Source: Flavobacteriaceae bacterium MAR_2010_188 (lineage in GTDB: Bacteria > Bacteroidota > Bacteroidia > Flavobacteriales > Flavobacteriaceae). From it: DNA of 64,000 bases. The position numbers and the translations under genes were made by a program. Shown here one piece after another: positions 17,431 through 43,299 of the stretch. The DNA is taken from contig LT629302.1 of the NCBI GenBank assembly GCA_900104375.1, positions 3,392,480 through 3,456,479 on the forward strand. Direction: 5' to 3'. Each line of letters begins with the position of its first letter. Position 1 is the first letter of the stretch. The notes beneath the pieces were generated by a model. The model ran no database searches and had not been told where the DNA came from. It was given only the letters and a program-made list of their open reading frames with translations.

Positions 17431-18102
17431 GTGTCTTCTAAAATTTTAAAATTTCAATTTATTCTCGTTATGGCATTTTTTGTGTCCTGCGGACCTTCAA
17501 AATCTATAATTCAGAAACCGATAATTTTCGACCAAAACCGTAAAGACTTGTCTCTTGAGTATCTTTCAAGCAGATATGGAATAACTCAACAGGCTCCGAC
17601 AATTGTTCCTAAAATGATAGTATTGCATTGGACGGAGATTGAAACTTTTCAAGATTCGTACAATGCTTTTTATAATCCGCTGCTTCCAAATGCTAGACCG
17701 GAATTAAAGGATGCCGGAAGTTTAAATGTTTCGGCACATTTTTTAGTAGATAGGGACGGATTAATTTATCAACTTCTGCCAGAAACGACGATGGCCCGTC
17801 ATACCATTGGACTTAATCATTGCGCCATCGGGATTGAAAATGTTGGTGGAACCAAAATAACTCCTTTAACCGAAAGTCAGCTCAAGGCTAACATTTGGTT
17901 GGTTAAATATCTTTCAAACAAATACGATATAGATTATCTCATTGGTCATTCGGAATATACCTTGTTTGAAGATTCACCGCTCTGGCTAGAAAAAGATAAG
18001 AGCTATCGTACGGTTAAAACAGATCCTGGAGATGACTTTATGTCTAAGGTTAGAGCGAAAACCAAGAAATTTAATTTTAAAGATTTACCTAAAAAGAATT
18101 AA
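17431..18102 (+). CDS. N-acetylmuramoyl-L-alanine amidase (Amidase_2), lipoprotein
   Basis: A 223-residue predicted lipoprotein (FFVSC, Cys20) with an Amidase_2 zinc hydrolase domain from about residue 58. It shows the zinc-site pattern IVLHWTE (His66), RHTIGLNHCAIGIEN, GHSEY (His173) and KTDPG (Asp198). It should cut the bond between muramic acid and L-Ala in peptidoglycan or recycled muropeptides, from the periplasmic face of a membrane. It is two bases upstream of an M14 carboxypeptidase, so the two are almost certainly co-transcribed. The start codon is GTG or ATG-like in context and fits the signal sequence. Confidence 0.88.
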   Translation: MSSKILKFQFILVMAFFVSCGPSKSIIQKPIIFDQNRKDLSLEYLSSRYGITQQAPTIVPKMIVLHWTEIETFQDSYNAFYNPLLPNARPELKDAGSLNVSAHFLVDRDGLIYQLLPETTMARHTIGLNHCAIGIENVGGTKITPLTESQLKANIWLVKYLSNKYDIDYLIGHSEYTLFEDSPLWLEKDKSYRTVKTDPGDDFMSKVRAKTKKFNFKDLPKKN

Positions 18103-18104
18103 GG

Positions 18105-19562
18105 ATGAAAAAATTATCGATTTTAATTTTCTGTTTTCCTGTGATGCTGAGTTTCGGTCAAAAGGATTCTGAATTAGTAAACATCTTTAAAGAATATGAA
18201 AACTATCACGAGAATAGCTTGAATGAAAGACGTATCAAGCATTCCGATATTTTACCATTGATTAAGACGTTAGAGTCTGACCCTAATTTTTCGGTCAGCA
18301 TGGTTGGTAAATCCATGGAAGACAGAAGCCTTAATTTAATCTCATTTGGAGAAGGGGCAACTGATGTTCTATTATGGTCGCAGATGCACGGGGATGAGCC
18401 AACTGCTACACAAGCGATTTTTGATCTGATAAATTTCTTCAGAAGTGAATCACATTCAGATTTTAAAAAATCCATTTTAAAAAGTCTAAAAATTCATTTT
18501 CTGCCAATGCTCAATCCGGATGGCGCAGAACGCTTCACGCGTCGCAACGTTTTGGGCATAGACATCAATAGGGATGCCGTTATACTGCAGACTCCTGAAG
18601 GACAAACCTTAAAACGAATGCGAGATAGTTTAGACGCGGACTTTGGGTTTAATCTTCATGACCAGAGCACTTACTATAATGCTATGAACACCGAAAAGCC
18701 AGCGACCTTATCGTTTTTGGCGCCAGCTTTCAACCTCAAAAAAGACATGAATCCTGTTCGCGAAAATGCTATGAAAGTGATTGTAGAGATGAACAATACC
18801 TTACAGCAGTATATACCAGGGCAGATAGCAAGATATAATGACGATTTTGAAACGCGCGCCTTCGGGGATAATATTCAGAAGTGGGGAACCAGTACTATTT
18901 TGATTGAATCTGGTGGATTTAAGGATGATCCCGAGAAGCAAGAAATACGCAAGTACAATTTTATTGCGCTTTTAACCGCGCTTAATTCTATTTCAAATAA
19001 TTCTTATAAAACCAATAAGTCATCGGACTATAGTAAGATTCCTGTTAACGATAAAATGCTCTTTGACCTTAAGATTGAAGGTGTGACCTATAATTTTAAA
19101 GGAAATGACTATACCATCGACCTGGGGATAAATCAACATGAAATCAATGCTGACTCGAGTTTTTATAATAATGGAAGGGTGATAGATTTAGGAGATCTTT
19201 CTACCTATTATGGCTATACTACCTTAAATGCCAAAAACATGAAAATTGTTGAAGGCAAAGTTTTACCGGAAACATTTCAAAATATATCTCAACTAGATTT
19301 GGATAAGGCTTATAAATTGCTAGAAGAAGGTTACTTATATATACGTTTAGAGGATTTGCCTAAGGATAAGTTGATGGCTAAATTCCCTATTAATATTATT
19401 TCTGCCGATAAAAAACTTAACAAATTCTGGGTAGGACTTGGTCGAACTCCAAATTTTTTCCTCCAAGAAAACGGAACCATAAAATATGCCGTGGTCAATG
19501 GTTTTCTGGTAGATATTTCTTCTAGAGAAACCAATTTGATGAATGCTGAAATATTGGATTAA
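18105..19562 (+). CDS. M14-family zinc carboxypeptidase, secreted
   Basis: A 485-residue protein with a signal peptide (about 1-19). The zinc motif HxxE is intact (His95 and Glu98 in QMHGDEPT), the third ligand is His185 (FNLHDQS), and NPDGAERFTRRN matches the substrate-binding Asn/Arg region. The catalytic Glu is probably in TILIESGGF near residue 268. Family members remove C-terminal residues from peptides; some act on peptidoglycan peptides. Coupling to the amidase suggests the latter, but general peptide digestion is equally possible. The C-terminal 170 residues are a separate, unrecognised beta-rich region. Confidence 0.85.
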   Translation: MKKLSILIFCFPVMLSFGQKDSELVNIFKEYENYHENSLNERRIKHSDILPLIKTLESDPNFSVSMVGKSMEDRSLNLISFGEGATDVLLWSQMHGDEPTATQAIFDLINFFRSESHSDFKKSILKSLKIHFLPMLNPDGAERFTRRNVLGIDINRDAVILQTPEGQTLKRMRDSLDADFGFNLHDQSTYYNAMNTEKPATLSFLAPAFNLKKDMNPVRENAMKVIVEMNNTLQQYIPGQIARYNDDFETRAFGDNIQKWGTSTILIESGGFKDDPEKQEIRKYNFIALLTALNSISNNSYKTNKSSDYSKIPVNDKMLFDLKIEGVTYNFKGNDYTIDLGINQHEINADSSFYNNGRVIDLGDLSTYYGYTTLNAKNMKIVEGKVLPETFQNISQLDLDKAYKLLEEGYLYIRLEDLPKDKLMAKFPINIISADKKLNKFWVGLGRTPNFFLQENGTIKYAVVNGFLVDISSRETNLMNAEILD

Positions 19563-19572
19563 GATTTCAAAC

Positions 19573-20877
19573 TTAATAGTTGTTTCTCAACATTTCCAAA
19601 ATTGTTTGTATACCCTCTTTAACCTGAGCTGTTGGCCGCGTGAAATGATTATTCATAAAACTAAAAATAAGCGTTCTGTTAGATTTAGTAATAAGGTAGC
19701 CGCTCAGACAGTAATTGTTGCCGACCGAACCAGATTTGGCAAACACGTAAGCTTCATCATCTACATACCAATTTTTTAAGGTTCCAGAACTTCCGCCAGA
19801 AGGAAATATACTGAACAGGCGCTTTTTTTCATTTGCCTTGAACAATCGGCTTAGAATATCAACAAAGGAAGATGGGGTAAAGAGATTATACCTACTTAAA
19901 CCAGAGCCATCAACCCATCTAGGTTTCTGTTTCAGACCTTTTAGATTTTCAGATAGAATATTCTCTCTAACTTTTTTGGTATCGAGTTGATTATTTTCAA
20001 CTGAAGAACACAAAATGAGGAGCTGTTCTGCCAAAAAATTATCGCTTACCAACATCATCCTCTTATATAAACTATCGGAAGGAATACTGTATTTTATGGA
20101 TAGAGCGCCATTCGGAATGCCCGTATAAAGTTGATGAGGAATATTTAAGAGCGAATCCCATAACATTGTTCTGGTTTTAAGGTCCATGACAATTGGCACT
20201 TCAAGTGTGTCATTTGTTTTAAGATTAAAGTAAAATTTGTTATCATAATAATCTCTCCGAAAATTAAATTCCTTAGTTAGAACCTTATCTCTGAGACTAC
20301 CTGGGACGGTGTTTATTCCATTATTCCCGAATATTTGAAGCACATTGCCATACATAGGTAAACTGTGCCTCTCTGGACTAAAATAAGTGTCGTAATCTTC
20401 CCATGCCCAGCCCGGTCCGTATTTTTCATCTCTGAGGTTCTGCTCATATATTTTTATATAGTTGAAGGGCTCAACAAACTTCATTAAAGTACTATCCTGA
20501 AAATAGGGATGAAGAAAAGTTGGGTCGCCTGTTCCCACGATAGAAATAGTATCGTTTTCGATTTTATATTTGATAGCGGGTATCGAGTCGCCTAGATATT
20601 GAAGGGAGGAATAAAGCGTAAAAATCTTTGTATTGCTTGCCGGGGTAAAATACTTGTCAGAATTAATTGAGTAGACAGTATCACTTGTCTCCGCATCAAT
20701 AATAAGCAAACCTGTGAATTGATTCTGGTAATCTTCAAGACTTATTTGTTGATTTATCTTCTTCTCAATCCTCGATGTGCCACAGTTATAAAACAATAAC
20801 ACTGTGAGCGTATAAAGAATGAGAATTCGGTATTTCAAAATGAAAGTTGTAAAACCCTGTTGCATGTTACTATTCAA
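19573..20877 (-). CDS. D-alanyl-D-alanine carboxypeptidase, PBP4/S13 family
   Basis: A 434-residue penicillin-binding protein of the DacB type, a little shorter than E. coli DacB. The SxxK motif is Ser81-Asn-Thr-Lys84 (TPASNTKIF). The second box is DGSGLSRYN, and the KTG-like box reads AKSGSVGN, with Ser replacing Thr. A hydrophobic N-terminus (about 15-31) ending FYNC suggests an envelope anchor or a non-canonical lipoprotein signal. It would trim or hydrolyse peptidoglycan cross-links. It converges on the M14 gene with 10 bases between, so a group of wall-active enzymes lies here. Confidence 0.88.
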   Translation of the reverse strand: MNSNMQQGFTTFILKYRILILYTLTVLLFYNCGTSRIEKKINQQISLEDYQNQFTGLLIIDAETSDTVYSINSDKYFTPASNTKIFTLYSSLQYLGDSIPAIKYKIENDTISIVGTGDPTFLHPYFQDSTLMKFVEPFNYIKIYEQNLRDEKYGPGWAWEDYDTYFSPERHSLPMYGNVLQIFGNNGINTVPGSLRDKVLTKEFNFRRDYYDNKFYFNLKTNDTLEVPIVMDLKTRTMLWDSLLNIPHQLYTGIPNGALSIKYSIPSDSLYKRMMLVSDNFLAEQLLILCSSVENNQLDTKKVRENILSENLKGLKQKPRWVDGSGLSRYNLFTPSSFVDILSRLFKANEKKRLFSIFPSGGSSGTLKNWYVDDEAYVFAKSGSVGNNYCLSGYLITKSNRTLIFSFMNNHFTRPTAQVKEGIQTILEMLRNNY

Positions 20878-21006: not shown

Positions 21007-21204
21007 TTACTCTTTCTTATTATAGTCTCGTAACTTTTTAGCTCCGTATATTCCGCCGGCAACTAGCAAAATAGATAGTCCTCCGTCTAGTGGAGTAGCG
21101 GGTGGCACACCTGGGCTGCCTCCTCGGCCTCCACCAGTACCTTGAGCCTCAACTGTGAGTAATGGAATGATTGTAAGTAATAATATAAACAAAATCTTCT
21201 TCAT
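21007..21204 (-). CDS. Tiny secreted protein with PID-CTERM-type sorting signal
   Basis: A 65-residue protein that is almost only signals. Residues 1-20 are a signal peptide. A 17-residue Gly/Pro-rich linker (GTGGGRGGSPGVPPAT) follows. Then comes a three-part C-terminal signal: Pro38-Leu-Asp40-Gly-Gly, a hydrophobic helix (43-54) and a basic tail (KKLRDYNKK). This layout is that of exosortase-type sorting signals, and the PxD-GG motif matches the flavobacterial PID-CTERM class. It begins 7 bases after the T9SS protein gene and shares its terminator. An exosortase-family gene lies 4 kb away on the other strand and is the likely processing enzyme. Confidence 0.75.
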   Translation of the reverse strand: MKKILFILLLTIIPLLTVEAQGTGGGRGGSPGVPPATPLDGGLSILLVAGGIYGAKKLRDYNKKE

Positions 21205-21211
21205 GACATTC

Positions 21212-24200
21212 TTAATTTATAATGACTTTCTTGACTGTAGTGCCTAGATTGGATTCTACAGAAATAATATAGAATTTACTGTTATCTACAAAGTTATGAT
21301 TTATTTCGTAGGTATTGAAAGATTCATCGATATTGGTTGAAAGAACTGTTCTTCCTAAAACATCTTGGACTATTAACTTCGCAGAAGGTAATGTCATATT
21401 CCCTTTCAATTTCAATTTTATCGAATTTTTTGAAGCAAAAATCACTAGGTTATTATCTAAAGCTTTAGAATTTTCTACTCCCAAAGTACTATCTGTGGAC
21501 AATACCAAATTGAATCTTAAAGAATCATAATCTACCTCGCTAGTGAAATTTACAGGTTGATTGGTATTAATTTCAGTATAGATATTTAGTAACTTATCTT
21601 GAATATACATTGTAACATTCTCTGGCATATTTTCCAAGAGCTCAATATTGAATTGGAAATTTCCATTTTCTGACATCAATAATCCTAAAGGAATGATTAT
21701 CTCATCCTGAATATGAGGTAATCCTTGAATCGCATATATATCGTTCTCAATAAAACTATAAAGTTGCAACTTTTGATTCCCCATGAACTTCGGAGCATCA
21801 TAAAGTCTATCATATCCAAGTGTAGCATCATCAACGAAACCGAACAAAACCTCATTGTAAGATCCGCTAGACGAGTTTTTCACACTCAATTTTAATTTCT
21901 GGATATCTTGTAAAAGTTCAGCTAAACGAGAGTTTACGTGAGTAGTAGAACCTTCCCTTGTTCTGAAAAAGTTTTCATCAGCGTTTAAGTCAAGAACCTT
22001 CATGGTATTATTAAACTCGAGGTTAGCACCTTCTGTACTTGCTTTAACAAAAAATCCTTGTGCTGTACCCACATAACCATTAAAGGAATTACCGTTAGGG
22101 CCCACAGTTCCAATGGCATTGTAAGTTATATAATCTTCATTACTACCTCTAGTTCCTTGAGGATTATCGTCGTCCCAAATAAAGATTACAGGGTCAATAG
22201 TAGCCGCATTAGTAAAGAACATCTCAACAACATCCAAGGCAGCCGGATAGGGATTGGAAACTAGGTTATAACCAGCATCAACATCTTCCGAAGCGGTATA
22301 AACTAGCGGTATCAGGTAAGTGCCAGTATGTGGATTTCCAACGAACTCAACAGTACCTGTGAAAGCTGAGAAGTAACCCTCTCCGACTGGCATCGGCTCA
22401 TTTACTACTCTGTAAAATCTATCATCACCAAAACTTGGCAAATACGGTACATTTTCATCGTAGCCATATACTAATTTTCCTAAAACGGCGGTATTTGCTC
22501 CAGAAACTGGTGCACCTACCACGCTGTATTTTCCTGTTCCAGTGCTAAAAGTTGTGTTTCTAATAATAACGTGATTATCACCTGAAATTGTACCATAAGT
22601 TAAAAGAGAAGCGCCAGACTCAACCTGAATATGTCCAGATGTTCCATCAACATCGCCACCAACAGACAGATTGCCAGTTTGTATAGTAAGTTTATCGTAT
22701 AAAAATAGATTATTGACCGTAAAGGTTCCATTAATGAAAGGTGGGTTAGAAGATACATTGATATATGCATCATCCGACGCAGTCGGAACTCTACCTGGGC
22801 TCCAGTTCCCTGCCTTGTTCCAGTCATTATCAACTAAGCCAACCCAGTTTATTAAAAATCCACCAATAGGCACTGGTCGGAATGCTTCAGAATTAATTGC
22901 CGCTCCAGTAAGAACGCCGGTGCCACTTATAGTCCAATTACCTGGGTTAAATGTTTGACCATCAGGACCAGTTCCTTGAATTCTCGAAGCCCATCCATCA
23001 TCATAGTCCCAAAATGTCCCAGCTCCGTTAGTCCCTACGTATCCATAAGTATCGATAACATCACCAAAAGCTAAGAGTTCAATCGCATCGTTTCCGCTTA
23101 TTGCAGCAACCGGGCTTACATAGTCTGCAGAAAAACCGAAGAATTCTTGAAAGTATGCCGCGTCGTCAGTAACTATAATAAAATCACCCGCACTTGCAGG
23201 CACAGCGGGAAAAGCAAATTCTTGTCCAAAATATCCAGTCCCATCATTCGTAGAACCTAATCCAAAAATGCTTAAATCTTCAATATCTTCTAAAACATAG
23301 ACTTCAATACCATTTGGCAACCCTGTAGAAAGTGGACCGCTCCAAATTGTTTGTAGCGTGAGTGGCGGTCTAGATCCTACTTCTCCAAATAAACCAACAA
23401 ATTTTGTGGTAGTGCCTGCGGAGGATATTGTAATAGTAGAACTATACCCGCCTTCAGTAAATCCAGCCATTAACCTAACATAGATTGTTGTAGGAGCTAC
23501 CATTCCATCTACAGGGGTTAAGATAATAGAATCACTATAATTTGATCCTGGTGTAAGTGTTATTTCAAAAAAATCTGGGACTTCGATTAGAACATTGTCA
23601 ATAAGATTCTCACCCTCTATCAAAAATGATTGTTCAACAGAGGGACCGTTATTCTCAAAATAGAAAAAATTAAACAAATTGGTTACACTTGCGTTAACGC
23701 CAGGGGAAATTGTTATTTCAAAAGAGGTTAGGTCAAATGGAGCTACACCACCATCAGAGGTCGCCCAATTGGACGTGTTGTTAATGAGATCAAAATAAGA
23801 TGAAGCAGTTTCACCGGAACGAGTTCCTATATATTTAGCATCATCAAAATTGAAACGAAGTTGCGCAGTAAAAACAGGAGGGAATGTACCTAAATAGATA
23901 TTTTCGCCGACGGCATGTAGATATGTTGTAACAAGTCCAGCGGAAGGACCTTGATATGCAGTAACATTATCATTTCCCCTATTAAATGGGCTCCCTAGCG
24001 AAAAAGTACCTGACCCTTCGGGCAGGAAATCAGGTGATGTAGTTGTTCTACGAATAACTGTGCCAGCAGAAATTCCTCCAGAAGGAACGGTATATCTTAA
24101 ATGGCCCTCTGCCCCTTCATCTAATGAAAAATCGCCATCTGCGGGTTTATCTGAAAAATAAATAATCGTTCCTTCGTCTAGGTCAACAAAGGTTACAAAT

Positions 24201-24322
24201 AGAAATTCTCGATTCTGAGTATCTATACCAATTATAGCCATATCACCAGTGGCCAAGGTTGTCTGGGAATAAAAGTTTATTCCACACAGTAAGGTGAATA
24301 AAAAAAGTAGTTTCTTAATCAT
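21212..24322 (-). CDS. Large secreted protein with type IX secretion C-terminal domain
   Basis: A 1036-residue protein with a signal peptide (about 1-19). Residues about 20-210 form a repeat-rich beta domain, about 320-480 look like a lamin-tail-type domain (IEVYVLEDIEDLSIFGLGST, then NDAIELLAFGDVIDTYGYVG), and the middle is beta-helix-like. The last about 80 residues (from LGVENSKALDNNLVIFASKN) match a T9SS type A sorting domain, including LIVQDVLGRTVLSTN and a final KKVIIN. It should be exported across the outer membrane and anchored or released. The tiny sorting-signal protein is the next gene in the operon. No enzyme motif was seen. Confidence 0.8.
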   Translation of the reverse strand: MIKKLLFLFTLLCGINFYSQTTLATGDMAIIGIDTQNREFLFVTFVDLDEGTIIYFSDKPADGDFSLDEGAEGHLRYTVPSGGISAGTVIRRTTTSPDFLPEGSGTFSLGSPFNRGNDNVTAYQGPSAGLVTTYLHAVGENIYLGTFPPVFTAQLRFNFDDAKYIGTRSGETASSYFDLINNTSNWATSDGGVAPFDLTSFEITISPGVNASVTNLFNFFYFENNGPSVEQSFLIEGENLIDNVLIEVPDFFEITLTPGSNYSDSIILTPVDGMVAPTTIYVRLMAGFTEGGYSSTITISSAGTTTKFVGLFGEVGSRPPLTLQTIWSGPLSTGLPNGIEVYVLEDIEDLSIFGLGSTNDGTGYFGQEFAFPAVPASAGDFIIVTDDAAYFQEFFGFSADYVSPVAAISGNDAIELLAFGDVIDTYGYVGTNGAGTFWDYDDGWASRIQGTGPDGQTFNPGNWTISGTGVLTGAAINSEAFRPVPIGGFLINWVGLVDNDWNKAGNWSPGRVPTASDDAYINVSSNPPFINGTFTVNNLFLYDKLTIQTGNLSVGGDVDGTSGHIQVESGASLLTYGTISGDNHVIIRNTTFSTGTGKYSVVGAPVSGANTAVLGKLVYGYDENVPYLPSFGDDRFYRVVNEPMPVGEGYFSAFTGTVEFVGNPHTGTYLIPLVYTASEDVDAGYNLVSNPYPAALDVVEMFFTNAATIDPVIFIWDDDNPQGTRGSNEDYITYNAIGTVGPNGNSFNGYVGTAQGFFVKASTEGANLEFNNTMKVLDLNADENFFRTREGSTTHVNSRLAELLQDIQKLKLSVKNSSSGSYNEVLFGFVDDATLGYDRLYDAPKFMGNQKLQLYSFIENDIYAIQGLPHIQDEIIIPLGLLMSENGNFQFNIELLENMPENVTMYIQDKLLNIYTEINTNQPVNFTSEVDYDSLRFNLVLSTDSTLGVENSKALDNNLVIFASKNSIKLKLKGNMTLPSAKLIVQDVLGRTVLSTNIDESFNTYEINHNFVDNSKFYIISVESNLGTTVKKVIIN

Positions 24323-24373
24323 ATCAATAGTTTTGAGGCCATATTTTTACAAGAATATGGAAAAATTAATTTA

Positions 24374-24381
24374 CAAATATA
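24374..24381 (-). promoter_or_regulatory. -7 element upstream of the T9SS-protein gene
   Basis: TATATTTG on the minus strand, about 50 bases before the start codon. No good -33 element at the right distance, so only half of the promoter is supported. Confidence 0.4.
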
Positions 24382-24511
24382 GCTAAACCAATATAAACAG
24401 ATTAATTTAATCGATTTTTTTGATAACTATTTACGATAACCTTATAGTGCATAAAGCACCACGATTATTATGATTGATGCTTGAAAAAAAGGTCAAAATA
24501 AAGGATATATT

Positions 24512-24543
24512 TTTCGCTTAGTAAAAAAAATAAAATACATTTG
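24512..24543 (+). promoter_or_regulatory. Promoter of the small barrel gene and probably the exosortase genes
   Basis: TTTC at 24512-24515, 20 bases, then TACATTTG at 24536-24543. The in-frame TTG at 24541 lies inside this -7 element, so the ATG at 24577 is the credible start of the gene that follows. Confidence 0.65.
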
Positions 24544-24576
24544 CCAATTAAAATTGTCTCTAAATCTTTTTTTAAT

Positions 24577-25158
24577 ATGAAATATTTTAAACTATTTCTT
24601 TTACTAATGCTATTTTCTACTGCACACAAAGGGATGGCGCAACTCTCCGGTGCTGAAAAGCCTTGGATTGTTGGTTTAAGTTACAATGTAGTTGATGATT
24701 CTTCCTTACGTTTTAAAGAGTTCTTCAACATTAGCGAACATTGGAATACCATCTTCTTGCCAACAACTTTGAACGTTGAATATATGTTTAGCGAGAAATT
24801 CTCTGCAGAATCTGCATTGAGTTACAATAGATTTATTCCACAGTACGAAAAATTTTATACCCCACCTTCTTCAAAGAAATCTTATATCGGCTTCGACTTA
24901 AATGCTAAATTCTATTTTCTTAAAAATGACATTCTGAGGGAAAAAGAATTTATGCCCTATGTGATGAGTGGTTTTGGTTACTCAACTGTTGATAGCTTAA
25001 ATTGGTTTCACTTTAATTTTGGCCTTGGTGTATCATATTGGTTTAACCCGTTATGGGGAGCTAAAATCCAATCCACCGGAAAATGGACTCTTGACCTTAG
25101 CGACAGTACCAACTATAAGCATCATATGATAGGTATTATGTATCTATTTGCAGAATAA
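24577..25158 (+). CDS. Small outer-membrane beta-barrel protein
   Basis: With the start at 24577 the protein has 193 residues: a signal peptide (about 1-21, ending GMAQ), then alternating-pattern strands ending MYLFAE. The size suits an eight-stranded OmpA/OmpW-like barrel. No family was recognised. It lies 43 bases upstream of the exosortase gene on the same strand with no terminator between, so the two may be co-transcribed and this barrel could belong to the same surface system. Confidence 0.6.
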   Translation: MKYFKLFLLLMLFSTAHKGMAQLSGAEKPWIVGLSYNVVDDSSLRFKEFFNISEHWNTIFLPTTLNVEYMFSEKFSAESALSYNRFIPQYEKFYTPPSSKKSYIGFDLNAKFYFLKNDILREKEFMPYVMSGFGYSTVDSLNWFHFNFGLGVSYWFNPLWGAKIQSTGKWTLDLSDSTNYKHHMIGIMYLFAE

Positions 25159-25201
25159 AACATTACCAAAATAATTTTTTCTAAAGGTTAATCATCTTCT
25201 A

Positions 25202-25729
25202 ATGGAGGATAATACCGGTATTAATAAGAGACAGCTAATAAAAAGATTTTTCATAAAAGCAGGTGTTTTCTACCTACTATGGCAAATCCTGTATTTAGGC
25301 ATTGTTAGGCCAAATGGTCATATTGACCAGTTTCTCACAAACTTAGTAATTTCTGGTACGGTAACTGGTTTAAACGTATTAGGATTAGAATCTACCAATA
25401 TAGTTAATATCGTATATATCGGTAATATTGCGGCTGTAAGGGTTGAAAATCAGTGTAATGGACTCGAGCTGCTTGCTCTCTTTGTAGGATTCTTGATTTG
25501 TTTTCCTGGTAAGTCGTTGCCTAAACTTATAGTTTCTATCATAGGTTCTATTCTGCTTTTTATCACAAATATTATTAGAGAAATCTTATTATCACTCAAT
25601 TATGTTTATTTCGAGTCATCGTTCAATATTAATCATAAGTACACCTATACAATCGTAGTATACTTTATTGTGTTTTTAATTTGGAAATATTGGATTAAGA
25701 ACTTCTCGATAGTGTCAAAAAATGCCTAA
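25202..25729 (+). CDS. Exosortase/archaeosortase-family membrane protease
   Basis: A 175-residue protein with several membrane segments. The conserved catalytic residues of the family are all present in order: Cys85 (ENQCNGLELL), Arg126 (NIIREILL) and His145 (NINHKYTY). Exosortases cut C-terminal sorting signals of exported proteins and probably pass them to another carrier. Flavobacterial subfamilies (XrtF and the X/Y types) cannot be separated by eye. The next gene overlaps it by 8 bases. The likely substrate is the tiny PxD-type protein at 21007-21204. The genes then run straight into a surface-glycan locus, matching the usual exosortase context. Confidence 0.87.
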   Translation: MEDNTGINKRQLIKRFFIKAGVFYLLWQILYLGIVRPNGHIDQFLTNLVISGTVTGLNVLGLESTNIVNIVYIGNIAAVRVENQCNGLELLALFVGFLICFPGKSLPKLIVSIIGSILLFITNIIREILLSLNYVYFESSFNINHKYTYTIVVYFIVFLIWKYWIKNFSIVSKNA

Positions 25730-26204
25730 CTCGAAAATATATTATAGGATTATTACCACAGTAATTATAGTGCTGATTTTATTCTTAGGCGCTTTCCGGG
25801 AAAAGATTATAATAATCTTAAATAATTTACTCCTTACTAATGTCGATGATTACGAAGTACCTTGGCTATCCAATTTTATAAATAGTTATGGTTCAACTAA
25901 AACTGTTCGCCAGTGGATATCTCATTACATAATTTTTTACTCACTTTATCTAAGCTGCCACTTTATATTGATTAATATGGTTTTCAGAAATCATACTAGA
26001 GTAAGGCTTTGGGTTAATTTTGGACTCGGCGCCTTGCTAAGTGTCCTTATATTAGGCAAAATTATATTCGGGGTTTTAAATGTTACTATTCTAGAAGAAT
26101 ATTTTAGTTTTGCATTCCATAAGTTAATTGCCTTGCCATTTCTTCTGCTGGCAATAGAAGGGGGTATGTCTTTTTATAAGATAATTGATGATAGAACAAT
26201 ATAA
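25722..26204 (+). CDS. Exosortase-associated membrane protein
   Basis: A 160-residue integral membrane protein with about four hydrophobic segments (about 9-25, 67-87, 97-120 and 130-150). It overlaps the exosortase gene by 8 bases, so translation is coupled. Small membrane partner proteins coded directly after exosortases are known in Flavobacteriia. I could not match this one to a named family with confidence. A role in presenting the substrate or stabilising the protease is inference from position. Confidence 0.6.
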   Translation: MPNSKIYYRIITTVIIVLILFLGAFREKIIIILNNLLLTNVDDYEVPWLSNFINSYGSTKTVRQWISHYIIFYSLYLSCHFILINMVFRNHTRVRLWVNFGLGALLSVLILGKIIFGVLNVTILEEYFSFAFHKLIALPFLLLAIEGGMSFYKIIDDRTI

Positions 26205-26237: not shown

Positions 26238-27092
26238 ATGTCTTCAGGAAAAAGTTATGATCTTGTTATAGAACCAAAATCAAGTCTTTTTAAATTAAAT
26301 TTAGCGGAGGTCTGGCGCTATAGAGATCTATTGATGCTATTCGTACGCAGGGACTTTGTATCTGTCTACAAACAAACAGTCCTAGGTCCGTTATGGTTTA
26401 TTATACAACCGATATTTACTTCAGTGGTGCAGCTTTTTGTTTTTACCAATATCGCACAAATATCCACTGACGGTATTCCACCCCTTTTATTTTATCTTTC
26501 TGGCAATGTCATGTGGCAATATTTTTCGGGTTGCCTAACACTAACCTCTAATACATTTAGGGGTAATGCAGGTATTTTTGGGAAGGTATATTTTCCTCGA
26601 TTGATTACTCCATTGTCCTTAGTTATTTCACAGTTATTGAAATTTGCAGTTCAATTTGGTCTTTTCTTGGCTGTTTGGTTTTATTTTTATTATGATCAAT
26701 CTGCAGGAGCTCTGAATCCGAATTGGACAATCATATTGCTTCCTGTCCTTGTAATAATTATGGCAGGTTTAGCCTTGGGGGCGGGAATGATTATATCAGC
26801 CTTAACCACAAAATACAGAGATTTTAGTTTTTTATTATCTTTTGCAGTGCAGCTATTAATGTATGCCACAGTCGTCATATACCCCCTTTCAGCAGCACCT
26901 GTGGAATATAGAAAATATATCATTGCAAATCCTATGACGCCATTAATAGAAACGTTTAGGTATTCTTTTACCGGTACAGGAACTTTTAGTTGGTTGTATC
27001 TTGGTTATAGTTTTTTCTTCATGATTATTTTAATGCTCGCCGGTATTGTGGTATTTAATAAAGTCGAAAAAACATTTATGGATACTGTGTAA
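26238..27092 (+). CDS. Polysaccharide ABC exporter, permease (Wzm-like)
   Basis: A 284-residue ABC-2 type permease with six predicted membrane segments. The N-terminal cytoplasmic stretch WRYRDLLMLFVRRDFVSVYKQTVLGPLWFIIQP is the usual hallmark (positions about 26-58). It should form the inner-membrane channel that moves an undecaprenyl-linked glycan to the periplasm, powered by the ATPase encoded 31 bases downstream. It is the first gene of the glycan locus after the exosortase pair. Confidence 0.92.
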   Translation: MSSGKSYDLVIEPKSSLFKLNLAEVWRYRDLLMLFVRRDFVSVYKQTVLGPLWFIIQPIFTSVVQLFVFTNIAQISTDGIPPLLFYLSGNVMWQYFSGCLTLTSNTFRGNAGIFGKVYFPRLITPLSLVISQLLKFAVQFGLFLAVWFYFYYDQSAGALNPNWTIILLPVLVIIMAGLALGAGMIISALTTKYRDFSFLLSFAVQLLMYATVVIYPLSAAPVEYRKYIIANPMTPLIETFRYSFTGTGTFSWLYLGYSFFFMIILMLAGIVVFNKVEKTFMDTV

Positions 27093-27123
27093 AATTGTAT
27101 TTGCAATTTATTTCCAAAAAAAC

Positions 27124-28386
27124 ATGTCAGAACCTATTATAAAGATTGAGAATTTAAGTAAACAATACCGATTGGGAACAATTGGAACTGGAACTATCAC
27201 TCACGATGTAAACCGATGGTGGCAGACCTCTATTTTAAGTAAAGAGGATCCTTATTTGAAAGTCGGTGACACGAATGACAGAGGGAGTATAGGTGATAGC
27301 GAGTATATCTGGGCTTTAAAAAATATAAATTTAGAAATTCATGAGGGGGATGTTGTGGGTATTATTGGCAGAAATGGTGCTGGTAAAAGTACTTTACTTA
27401 AGCTTTTGTCTCGAATTACAGCACCTACAACAGGAAGTATAAAAATTAAAGGAAGATTAGCGTCTTTATTAGAAGTGGGGACCGGATTTCATCCGGAATT
27501 AACAGGTCGTGAGAACATTTTTTTAAACGGTGCTATTTTAGGTATGACGAAAGCTGAAGTATCATCCAAACTTGACGAAATTATTGACTTTTCTGGATGT
27601 GCAAGATATATTGATACTCCTGTAAAACGTTATTCTTCTGGAATGACCGTTAGAGTTGGGTTTGCCGTGGCGGCCTTTCTAGAACCTGAAATATTAGTGG
27701 TAGACGAGGTGTTGGCCGTTGGAGATGCTGAATTTCAAAAGAAAGCGGTTGGTAAAATGAAGTCTGTATCTCAAGAAGGCAGAACAGTTTTATTTGTGAG
27801 CCATAATATGGCATCTATAAAAAATTTATGTACCTCTGGAATTTTGTTAAATCAAGGAGGGGTAGAATTTATGGGAACTGCCGAAGAAACGGTAGAACGG
27901 TATTTACAGGATGATCTTCTCGCTTATGAAACAGGTGAGGTCATAGATAAGGGTGGCAACAAGCAGGTCGAAATTATCGACTATCAATCATTTCGTGGAC
28001 CAAATAAGAGCATTTCCTTTTTTACTGGGGATAAGTTCACCTTGGAAGTAACTTTGAAATTTAATGAATACATCGGCAATGTTGATTTAGGGGTTAATTT
28101 TAAGACGAGTGGTCTAGAACTTATATCCCATATAAATAATTTTGATGAACATGTATCCATCAGTGGTAATAAAGGCGATGTCAAAACAGTGCGTATTATT
28201 ATTGAAAGCATCAATTTTGCACCTGGAACCTATGTCATAGATATTGGGATGGTAGCAGTCGGCCAAATGCTGCACTCTTTAGAAAATTGTTTTGAAATTG
28301 ACATTCAAAAAGGTCCAAATATAGGGCGGCCCAGTATATTTCCTAAAAACGCAAAAGTCTTTACCCCAACGCGATGGGAATTTTGA
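27124..28386 (+). CDS. Polysaccharide ABC exporter, ATPase with glycan-binding domain (Wzt-like)
   Basis: Starting at 27124 it is a 420-residue ATPase; the longer frame back to 27046 overlaps the permease and does not fit the family. Walker A is GRNGAGKST (82-90), the signature is YSSGM, and Walker B is followed by VDEVLAVGD. From about residue 255 a beta-rich domain extends to the end, like the Wzt C-terminal carbohydrate-binding domain that selects finished, end-capped chains. This implies chains may carry a terminal mark, which would be recognised before export. Confidence 0.92.
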   Translation: MSEPIIKIENLSKQYRLGTIGTGTITHDVNRWWQTSILSKEDPYLKVGDTNDRGSIGDSEYIWALKNINLEIHEGDVVGIIGRNGAGKSTLLKLLSRITAPTTGSIKIKGRLASLLEVGTGFHPELTGRENIFLNGAILGMTKAEVSSKLDEIIDFSGCARYIDTPVKRYSSGMTVRVGFAVAAFLEPEILVVDEVLAVGDAEFQKKAVGKMKSVSQEGRTVLFVSHNMASIKNLCTSGILLNQGGVEFMGTAEETVERYLQDDLLAYETGEVIDKGGNKQVEIIDYQSFRGPNKSISFFTGDKFTLEVTLKFNEYIGNVDLGVNFKTSGLELISHINNFDEHVSISGNKGDVKTVRIIIESINFAPGTYVIDIGMVAVGQMLHSLENCFEIDIQKGPNIGRPSIFPKNAKVFTPTRWEF

Positions 28387-30574: not shown

Positions 30575-31534
30575 ATGACAAATTCTGCCATTTTACTGTT
30601 AGTGTTTAATAGACCCGACACGGTCTTACAAGTCATTGATAGTGTTAGACTAGCAGAGCCAAAGAGACTGTATGTTGCTGCCGATGGACCGAGGGAGGGA
30701 AATCTAGAAGATCAAGCCCTTTGTAAAAAAACAAGAGAGAATGTATTAGACAATATTGATTGGGATTGCGAGGTCAAAACCTTATTTAGAGATAAGAATG
30801 TAGGTCTGCGAAATGGAGTTACAGGAGCATTAGATTGGTTTTTTAAGCATGAGGAAAGTGGCATTATACTAGAGGATGATTGTGTGCCCAATTCAAGTTT
30901 TTATACCTTGTGTGATGATCTCTTGCCACGTTATTTAGAGGATACCAGAATAGGTATGATAAGTGGCAATAATTATGGGTTCGATCTTTATGATCCAACG
31001 TTAAGCTATTCATTTTCAAAACATGGTTTAATTTGGGGTTGGGCAACTTGGAGGCGTGCCTGGAAACTTTATGATAAAACCAATTTTAATCTTTCAGATA
31101 AAGAATTAGAGCTTATAGGCGAAAATGTAAGCAAGAACACCAATTATCGTAATTTGTGGATGGAAGAAGCCAAATACGCCCTTTCTGGTAAAATATCTGT
31201 TTGGGCTTCTCTTTGGGGTATCGTCAGATATACAAACAATTTATTAATTGTTAGGCCACGAGTTAATTTAGTAGCTAATGTGGGTTTTGGAGATAATGCA
31301 ACTCATACTTCTGGTCAAGCCGATGAAAAATTTAAAGTAAGTCATCAGTTAAAAATACCGTTTGTTCATCCAGCGCATATTTTGCCAGATTACCAAGCGG
31401 ACGCTACTCTAGAGAATTTCAGATTGGAAGCATTTCCAAAAACACAAATTAAAGTAACAAAATCCAAATTTAAAAAAATGAAGACAAAACTTCATTATGC
31501 TTATTTATCGCTTTTTAAAGGAAAAAGTAATTAG
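30575..31534 (+). CDS. GT-A type glycosyltransferase (HlpA-like)
   Basis: A 319-residue protein beginning SAILLLVFNRPDT, with a nucleotide-sugar region and the acidic metal site ILEDDCVP (Glu100-Asp-Asp102). The later block SYSFSKHGLIWGWATWRRAW is typical of a Bacteroidota family often labelled hemolysin activation protein, but the fold is a GT-A glycosyltransferase. Specificity unknown. Confidence 0.8.
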   Translation: MTNSAILLLVFNRPDTVLQVIDSVRLAEPKRLYVAADGPREGNLEDQALCKKTRENVLDNIDWDCEVKTLFRDKNVGLRNGVTGALDWFFKHEESGIILEDDCVPNSSFYTLCDDLLPRYLEDTRIGMISGNNYGFDLYDPTLSYSFSKHGLIWGWATWRRAWKLYDKTNFNLSDKELELIGENVSKNTNYRNLWMEEAKYALSGKISVWASLWGIVRYTNNLLIVRPRVNLVANVGFGDNATHTSGQADEKFKVSHQLKIPFVHPAHILPDYQADATLENFRLEAFPKTQIKVTKSKFKKMKTKLHYAYLSLFKGKSN

Positions 31535-42540: not shown

Positions 42541-43299
42541 ATGGTTCTTATCAGGGTGGTTTTTTCATTTTTTTGGTATTACATCAATAGCCTTATCAGG
42601 CAAATATATTGGTTAGTACGTTTGGCTCAGTCTGAGATTGGCTCAAATGTTAATATGCAGTTTCCTATTGTAAGAGAAGGAAAAGGAACTTTCCGTTTTG
42701 GTCCTCATGGACGTTTGGAGAAAGGCTTAACCATAGGTGTTGGAGAAAACGGATTACTGGAAATCCAAGATAAATCTTTCTTGGATCAGAATGGCCGTAT
42801 AATTGTCAATAAAAATTGTTCCCTCAAAATTGGTAGCCAATTCAAATTAGGTGAAGGTGCAACGTTACACATATCTGCAAATTCAAAAATAGGAAATGGT
42901 GTTTCTATTCAAACCCGATGTGCTATTTTCGCCAGAGAGTCTAACGGTAAGGGGGAATTAAAAATAGGGAATAATACAAACATCGGCGATTATACTATAA
43001 TTGATACTGTATCCGACGTGACGCTGGGGAATAATGTTGCTCTCGGACCACATTGTACACTTTATACCCATGATCATATCTATTCTGATCTTTCACTGCC
43101 AGCATGGAAAGCAGGTATTATTACCAAGCCCATAATAATAGAAGACGGGGCTTGGGTGGGATCCAAAGTCACGATTCTTCCTGGGGTAACAATTGGTAAA
43201 AGAGCTGTAATAGCAGCGGGTTCAGTGGTAACAAAAAATGTAGAAGCAGAATCAATATGCGGCGGAGTCCCTGCAAAACTAATAAAAAAGATTGTTTAA
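42541..43299 (+). CDS. Hexapeptide-repeat acyltransferase
   Basis: A 252-residue protein with an N-terminal hydrophobic stretch (about 5-27) and a left-handed beta-helix from about residue 60 to 245. The late part shows the usual acetyltransferase pattern: NVALGPHCTLYTHDHIYSD with candidate catalytic His, GAWVGSKVTILPGVTIGKRA, and AGSVVTKNVEAESICGGVPAK. Probably an O-acetyltransferase of the glycan. Its stop (TAA) shares a base with the next ATG. Confidence 0.86.
   Translation: MVLIRVVFSFFWYYINSLIRQIYWLVRLAQSEIGSNVNMQFPIVREGKGTFRFGPHGRLEKGLTIGVGENGLLEIQDKSFLDQNGRIIVNKNCSLKIGSQFKLGEGATLHISANSKIGNGVSIQTRCAIFARESNGKGELKIGNNTNIGDYTIIDTVSDVTLGNNVALGPHCTLYTHDHIYSDLSLPAWKAGIITKPIIIEDGAWVGSKVTILPGVTIGKRAVIAAGSVVTKNVEAESICGGVPAKLIKKIV

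Follow-up and report, generated by a model that had tools for sequence, protein, structure and literature searches.

Genes at the locus

The 64,000-nucleotide stretch of the genome of Flavobacteriaceae bacterium MAR_2010_188 analyzed here (the window) contains genes for an exosortase, for a tiny protein with a PID-CTERM sorting tail and, directly upstream of the latter, for a large cargo protein of the kind exported by the type IX secretion system (T9SS) (Table 1). An original prediction made on this DNA had described genes at these positions, and they were confirmed there. The stop codon of the cargo gene lies 7 bases before the start of the tiny gene on the same strand. The divergent group on the plus strand runs in the order barrel protein, exosortase, small membrane protein, Wzm, Wzt and then glycosyltransferases, with the exosortase gene and the gene following it overlapping by 8 bases. 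The gene order on both strands recurs in a congener (G154; G and L numbers are our labels for genomes and loci), which argues that the arrangement did not arise by chance.

Table 1. Positions of the features discussed, numbered from the first base of the window
Feature	Position	Strand	Basis
Tiny PID-CTERM protein, probable exosortase substrate	21007-21204	-	65 amino acids; PID_CTERM NF046080 match
PID-CTERM sorting tail, residues 37-60	21025-21096	-	NF046080 match
Predicted mature peptide, residues 21-40, QGTGGGRGGSPGVPPATPLD	21085-21144	-	own cut rule; both cuts inferred
Large T9SS-type cargo, RemA homologue, 1036 amino acids	21212-24322	-	RemA homology, weak type A tail
T9SS type A-like C-terminal domain, below curated cut-off	21215-21388	-	17 bits, cut-off 23
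"A4 module", pre-tail module common to PID-paired cargos	21491-22729	-	alignment A4, E 1.1e-88
Outer-membrane beta-barrel protein, first gene of divergent group	24580-25158	+	PF13505 35.4 bits, cut-off 28.7
XrtX-like exosortase, 175 amino acids, Cys85/Arg126/His145	25202-25729	+	XrtX best family
Coupled small membrane protein, distant XrtX-associated type	25722-26204	+	NF046082 24.3 bits, cut-off 75
Wzm-type ABC-2 (ABC, ATP-binding cassette) transporter permease, start of glycan locus	26238-27092	+	PF01061
Wzt-type ABC transporter ATPase with Wzt_C domain	27121-28386	+	PF00005, PF14524

The tiny protein consists of a signal peptide (residues 1 to 20 by eye), a linker, PLDGG at residues 38 to 42, a hydrophobic helix and a basic end. 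Searched against the PID_CTERM model, it scored 42.7 bits over C-terminal residues 37 to 60 of 65, passing the cut-off of 26, and this score and the exosortase models given below bear out the pairing of an exosortase with a tiny PID-type protein. The window tail is the only match over the PID cut-off in its own genome (3.82 Mb, one contig), and the genome-wide count adds one second PID-like protein at 14.6 to 14.9 bits. If signal peptidase acts after Ala20 and a second cut falls near Asp40, as a simple rule of our own places them, the product would be residues 21 to 40, in agreement with the peptide of about 20 residues originally predicted. The tiny protein of the congener ends ...PPPGVPIQGLFVLLAAGGLYGYKKLRDYNK, with PIQG in place of PxD, and the aspartate is therefore not strictly kept.

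The family that best matches the window exosortase is XrtX (NF046081), at 152.7 bits (155.0 bits for the congener). Since this falls short of the family cut-off of 170, we call the protein XrtX-like only. It scored 56.7 bits against XrtF (cut-off 90 not reached) and 45.5 bits against XrtY, passed the general exosortase/archaeosortase model TIGR04178 (43.3 bits, cut-off 23) and stayed below the gathering cut-off of the exosortase EpsH model PF09721 (18.8 bits, cut-off 25.7). The Cys85, Arg126 and His145 set, noticed before in the sequence, was invariant across 13 aligned exosortases. By sequence, no relative of the exosortase was found in the PDB at expect values (E) up to 1. The protein encoded by the overlapping gene matched the XrtX-associated model NF046082 weakly, at 24.3 bits (26.6 bits in the congener, cut-off 75).

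In the window, the match of the 1036-residue protein to the T9SS type A tail model TIGR04183 was 13.2 bits, or 17 bits for the last 95 residues, below the cut-off of 23, whereas the syntenic cargo of the congener scored 35 bits, over the cut-off, and the window protein matches RemA over residues 447 to 993 (E = 1.6e-22).

A cargo module paired with the tiny gene

That two sorting routes meet at this locus had been merely hinted at in the original prediction, and it became the strongest signal of the analysis. We drew on two samples, 199 genomes of the family and 395 genomes of the phylum. In the phylum sample, 28 loci (L099 to L126) were taken as the best tail of each genome, one per genome, and in 22 of them a module-bearing T9SS cargo gene stands directly upstream of the tiny gene on the same strand; these 22 include L099, with its cargo upstream at the contig end. 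The six unpaired loci comprise one with an adjoining exosortase (L103), one at a contig end with almost no upstream sequence (L111) and four without a module gene upstream. All 10 of the upstream cargo pieces that were scanned passed the T9SS type A cut-off. The cargo and the tiny gene are mostly side by side in the Balneolaceae; on a contig of Balneola sp. SP292 (L193), an exosortase, a tiny gene and a module-bearing frame are consecutive, and in a family genome (G163) the cargo, the tiny gene and an exosortase of a third group, described below, adjoin one another.

Twenty paired cargos, the window's included, form one blast group by the 450 residues that precede the last 90, and their N-terminal parts differ. 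Alignment A4, built from 19 of the 20 (L145 was left out), outlines a module of about 400 residues directly before the secretion tail; the match of the window cargo to A4 (Table 1) is by construction, because A4 includes that cargo among its 19 rows. Comparison of the alignment with Pfam and NCBIfam gave no match common to more than one member. Searched against the PDB at E up to 1, the A4 profile found only RemZ (1e-33) and RemA (4e-31) of Flavobacterium johnsoniae. AlphaFold2 gave no usable model for three module rows, with a mean predicted local distance difference test score of 30.4. In three genomes (G000, G154 and G260), 12 of 15 module matches lie just before a T9SS type A match, against 126 such matches in all; module-bearing cargos are a minority of the type A cargos. 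A separate region (G113:C1:2423271-2451523) has four module-bearing genes within 28 kb, with open frames of 1677 to 2567 codons, resembling an adhesin array.

Distribution of the module and the exosortase

Among 14 chosen genomes, the module was present in all nine that have an exosortase and a tail and in none of the five without an exosortase. Across the 199 family genomes, with the module taken at E 1e-10, 116 have both module and exosortase, 9 the module only, 3 the exosortase only and 71 neither; at 95% completeness or more, the corresponding numbers are 101, 1, 3 and 49. Eight of the nine module-only genomes are 82 to 93% complete, and the ninth, G123, is a genuine exception. Of the 199 genomes, 197 have T9SS type A tails. 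Twenty module cargos taken from as many further family genomes, together with the window's, all matched TIGR04183 at E 0.01 (21 of 21).

An association of this kind could also stem from shared ancestry or lifestyle, with gliding, surface-living lineages retaining exosortases independently of their RemA-type adhesins. RemA serves as an adhesin in gliding, the genomes are related and those without an exosortase have fewer T9SS type A matches, all of which would fit. Against this, the association holds among genomes of similar cargo number: with type A matches counted up to 27 per genome, those with at least 20 divide into 106 with both, 6 with the module only, 2 with the exosortase only and 17 with neither, and those with 10 to 19 into 9, 1, 0 and 24. 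The direct pairing in 22 of 28 phylum loci and the three adjacent genes of G163 likewise argue against separate retention, and we regard this explanation as quite improbable.

Tails, XrtF and the gene beside ribE

The co-occurrence of tail and exosortase, on which the original prediction depended, was found. Of the 199 family genomes, 96 have both, 23 the exosortase only, 6 the tail only and 74 neither; of the six with a tail only, three owe it to matches within frames of 392 to 428 amino acids, and the other three are genomes that are 82 to 88% complete. The corresponding numbers for the 395 phylum genomes are 71, 28, 23 and 273. Setting our own threshold for an XrtX-grade exosortase at 143 bits, we picked by hand the 53 genomes that reach it; 49 of them have a tail match, and in at least 48 it is over the tail cut-off, as judged from a list that takes in 57 of the 59 genomes tallied over that cut-off. 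Exosortases were counted with the XrtX model, which also picks up XrtF and a third group. Twenty of 27 exosortases scanned from this census are XrtF at E 1e-30 or better; the remaining seven, picked as the third group, match XrtX alone at E 1e-30, all below the XrtX cut-off. This third group (L016, L017, L019, L024, L025, L027 and L029, all in family genomes) scored 109 to 130 bits against XrtX and, in the two scanned, 74 to 75 bits against XrtF. The PID proteins adjoining it are of greater length and in many cases abound in His, Cys and Gly, as in the HTHYRGCGHSGYGGG repeats of L025; they are possibly metal binding.

The genome of the window has one further exosortase over the general cut-off, an XrtF at C1:2201 kb (223.4 bits, cut-off 90), and an XrtF-associated protein (129.8 bits, cut-off 35); the XrtF gene is flanked by groEL and an ABC-transporter permease-like gene. 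The second PID-like protein of this genome has 67 amino acids, a Pro-rich linker and PIDGA, and is encoded between pdxA and ribE. We examined 31 PID loci in the family, counting the two of this genome, and both pdxA and ribE adjoin 18 of them. We read the DNA next to ribE in the 23 family genomes that have an exosortase and no tail match and in 7 without an exosortase, and RibE was found in 29 of these 30 (all except G128). Of the exosortase genomes overlooked by the tail model in which RibE was found, 22 of 22 have a small gene convergent with ribE, as against none of the 7 family genomes without an exosortase. The product of this gene has a signal peptide, a Pro-rich linker, a hydrophobic helix and a basic end, with P-[ILV]-D in 19 of the 22 proteins, PIT or PIN in two and neither in one. 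The tail model by itself is thus too insensitive to serve as a census, as 23 family exosortase genomes looked PID-less until the ribE locus was read.

Because of this distribution, the ribE-linked tiny gene is the best candidate for the XrtF substrate, and it probably is that substrate. The portion of the F. johnsoniae study available (PMC10936215) describes the XrtF substrates of that organism as still to be found, and the ribE-linked gene offers a candidate for the missing substrate. The same portion reports a hypothetical gene, Fjoh_0651, with a mutant phenotype like that of xrtF and complemented by a 434-bp fragment with its promoter. Fjoh_0651 may be the F. johnsoniae tiny gene, but as the genes around it could not be located, we treat this as conjecture and do not count it among the results.

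Predicted peptides and the glycan question

The cut rule parsed 39 of 40 XrtF-type proteins, one being unparsed, and a cargo-paired set of 23; three of the parsed cuts (L207, L101 and L102) are clearly too far upstream. The predicted XrtF-type peptides have a median of 21 residues and 37% Pro, with an N-terminal Gln in 31 of 39 and no Lys in 34. The cargo-paired peptides have a median of 16 residues and 20% Pro, with an N-terminal Gln in 19 of 23. Tiny size is the rule among these proteins and not a peculiarity of the window locus. In two Balneolaceae loci, L144 and L145 (G319 and G242), the tiny PID frame begins about 60 codons further upstream and has CxxC-like motifs ahead of the signal peptide; a misplaced start or fusion to a small gene probably accounts for this. 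At L156 (G380), the gene pair was recently duplicated: two identical tiny PID proteins lie 3.3 kb apart, and each directly follows a large gene of its own.

A signal peptide, a short peptide and a membrane tail make up a layout that a released, pheromone-like signal might also have. The predicted Balneolaceae peptides are similar across genera, with QPGLPxAPxQAPID in many, unlike strain-specific signals; no receptor was seen, and the partner is a surface cargo. A released signal is very improbable indeed.

The original prediction saw in the peptide a carrier, primer or anchor for surface glycan. The locus does lie at the edge of a glycan locus, as had been proposed: of ten proteins checked in the region from 26.2 to 59.5 kb, nine have domains of polysaccharide or transport type and the tenth (30575-31534) gave no Pfam match, and the exosortase gene leads into the Wzm/Wzt locus in both the window and the congener. 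Sugar genes also occur elsewhere. Among 46 XrtX loci, mostly from Balneolaceae and other Balneolia, 21 have at least 20.4 kb of sequence and were used for a count; a four-gene sugar-nucleotide set (UDP-sugar [UDP, uridine diphosphate] dehydrogenase, Gfo/Idh/MocA oxidoreductase, hexapeptide transferase and DegT aminotransferase) stands upstream of XrtX in 8 of these 21 Balneolaceae loci, and none of the four genes was found in 10, within the range read. Ser or Thr is present in 21 of the 23 cargo-paired peptides, the window's among them, and both are absent from 2. Opposed to these points, 12 of the 39 XrtF-type peptides have neither Ser nor Thr and 7 have none of S, T, Y, K, N and C, the XrtF gene of this genome and the ribE- and pdxA-linked tiny genes lie outside glycan loci, and the commonest partner is a T9SS cargo. 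Because XrtF-type peptides can lack hydroxyl side chains, and because of the gene context, the glycan-carrier explanation is weakened; as first worded it is not supported, and we consider it improbable. A glycan may still be the partner to which the peptide is attached, given the Ser or Thr of the cargo-paired peptides and the sugar genes of the Balneolaceae.

The available part of PMC7468200 describes a Wbp pathway that makes the sugar joined to T9SS cargo in Porphyromonas and Tannerella. An assignment of the four-gene set as Wbp linking-sugar genes was considered and not adopted, the likeness to WbpA/B/D/E being one of enzyme type only. When the four proteins of one locus (L168) were scanned, one passed a cut-off, that of a general nucleoside diphosphate-sugar dehydrogenase model, and none passed a Wbp-specific one. 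A blast search of the four sugar proteins against the window returned one weak hexapeptide match (42541-43296) and nothing else.

A possible role in handling surface adhesins

The families, the gene pairing and the co-occurrence can be read directly from the genomes. In light of them, we consider it on balance probable that the exosortase, the tiny PID protein and the module-bearing T9SS cargos make up a three-part surface system in which the peptide acts in trans. Sec would export the tiny protein, which would stay tethered through its C-terminal helix, and the exosortase, in the inner membrane, would cut it at or near P-[IL]-D. The new C-terminus would probably be joined to an amine-bearing envelope acceptor, perhaps a glycolipid. 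At the outer membrane, the peptide so formed, of about 15 to 20 residues, would then take part in trans in the anchoring or handling of cargos that bear the module. Its partners would be those T9SS type A cargos, adhesins of the RemA/RemZ type, in which the module directly precedes the tail. The genomic pattern suggests that the cut peptide helps hold or handle one subset of large surface adhesins. According to the available portion of PMC10936215, F. johnsoniae deletions of xrtF, Fjoh_1449, porU, porV, porZ and sprA colonized sand poorly, formed much less biofilm and abolished zorbs; the defects shared by the xrtF, por and sprA deletions agree with an exosortase product that serves T9SS cargos.

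The peptide could instead help without a covalent bond, as a chaperone in the periplasm or at the surface or as a ligand of the cargo module, with the exosortase merely freeing it from the membrane. The XrtF-type peptides are rich in Pro, a composition typical of binding motifs, and the tight pairing with module cargo suits such a helper. Against this, exosortase relatives are thought, in the available part of PMC7468200, to join the new C-terminus to a compound, a step needless for a freed helper. We rate a noncovalent helper as possible, on the unlikely side.

Several observations weigh against the three-part system. The window cargo stays under the type A cut-off, and the tiny protein of the congener has PIQG. 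A tail without an exosortase match occurs in 23 of the 395 phylum genomes, for example G229 and G314, both over the tail cut-off. A RibE tree of 47 rows, which is weak and whose bootstrap had not settled, requires four changes to account for its seven exosortase-less rows, two of them forced by well-supported branches. The module model was built from PID-paired cargos only. Just downstream of 20 module cargos, taken from 20 other family genomes, no PID gene was found (0 of 20), so that a partnership in the family would work in trans, and the link in those 20 genomes rests on co-occurrence; G272 and G260 likewise have several module cargos without an adjoining PID gene. Genomes that are related do not count as independent cases, and common ancestry and lifestyle confound the association in part. 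Type A matches are fewer where the exosortase is absent, and below 10 such matches (1 with both, 2 module only, 1 exosortase only and 30 neither) the association cannot be judged.

A more specific form of the three-part system would be a two-sortase relay. The exosortase would join the peptide to an envelope glycolipid, maybe through a Wbp-type diamino-uronic linking sugar, and the peptide-tagged lipid would be the acceptor or docking site by which type A cargos are sorted, those bearing the RemA-type module being kept on the surface and others let go. XrtF would work in the same way, each genome having a single tiny ribE-linked substrate that serves several cargos in trans. The available text of PMC12618676 indicates that the RemA tail permits both anchoring and release, and that of PMC10202324 calls unresolved how a type A cargo is chosen for one or the other, which leaves room for a peptide-tagged acceptor. 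We put the relay forward tentatively, as a doubtful elaboration. The shared module marks the T9SS cargos concerned, and the choice between staying on the surface and release becomes directly testable; F. johnsoniae is easy to work with in the laboratory, mutants in xrtF, T9SS and rem being already available or simple to obtain.

Other genes in the window

The beta-barrel protein that opens the divergent group is kept in the congener and may belong to the exosortase system. Adjoining the tiny gene, three hydrolase genes form a run at 17431-20877. Two are of the N-acetylmuramoyl amidase and M14 zinc carboxypeptidase types, and the third, encoded on the opposite strand, is of the S13 D-Ala-D-Ala carboxypeptidase type.

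Comparison with known systems

The window system is most like XrtX/PID-CTERM (NF046081, NF046080 and NF046082), which supplies the best families for its exosortase and tail, the latter over the cut-off, and also has a coupled small membrane protein, to which that of the window is at most a distant match. It differs in that the exosortase and its associated protein both fall below their cut-offs, and the names of these models make no mention of a pairing between the tail and a T9SS cargo module. The term PID-CTERM was not found in the literature searched, subscription papers and preprints being outside that search, and the available portions of PMC10936215 and PMC7468200 contain no link between an exosortase and the cargo module. 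The XrtF system of Flavobacteriia (TIGR04128 and TIGR04127; Fjoh_1448 and Fjoh_1449) is present in the same genome with a tiny protein of the same kind, and its exosortase is separate from that of the window. The T9SS type A cargos RemA and RemZ of F. johnsoniae (8gl6 and 8gl8) have a module and tail homologous to those of window-type cargos; of these two cargos, the solved complexes show just the tail at good resolution, according to the available text of PMC10994853.

PEP-CTERM/XrtA and GlyGly-CTERM/rhombosortase offer a likeness in the C-terminal motif, the helix, the basic end and a cut by a membrane protease, which is predicted here. The substrates of those two systems are mostly full-size proteins, whereas here the substrate hardly exceeds the tag itself and has as its partner a second, large protein exported by another system. 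The tail and exosortase families are already in NCBIfam; their connection to a T9SS cargo module is new.

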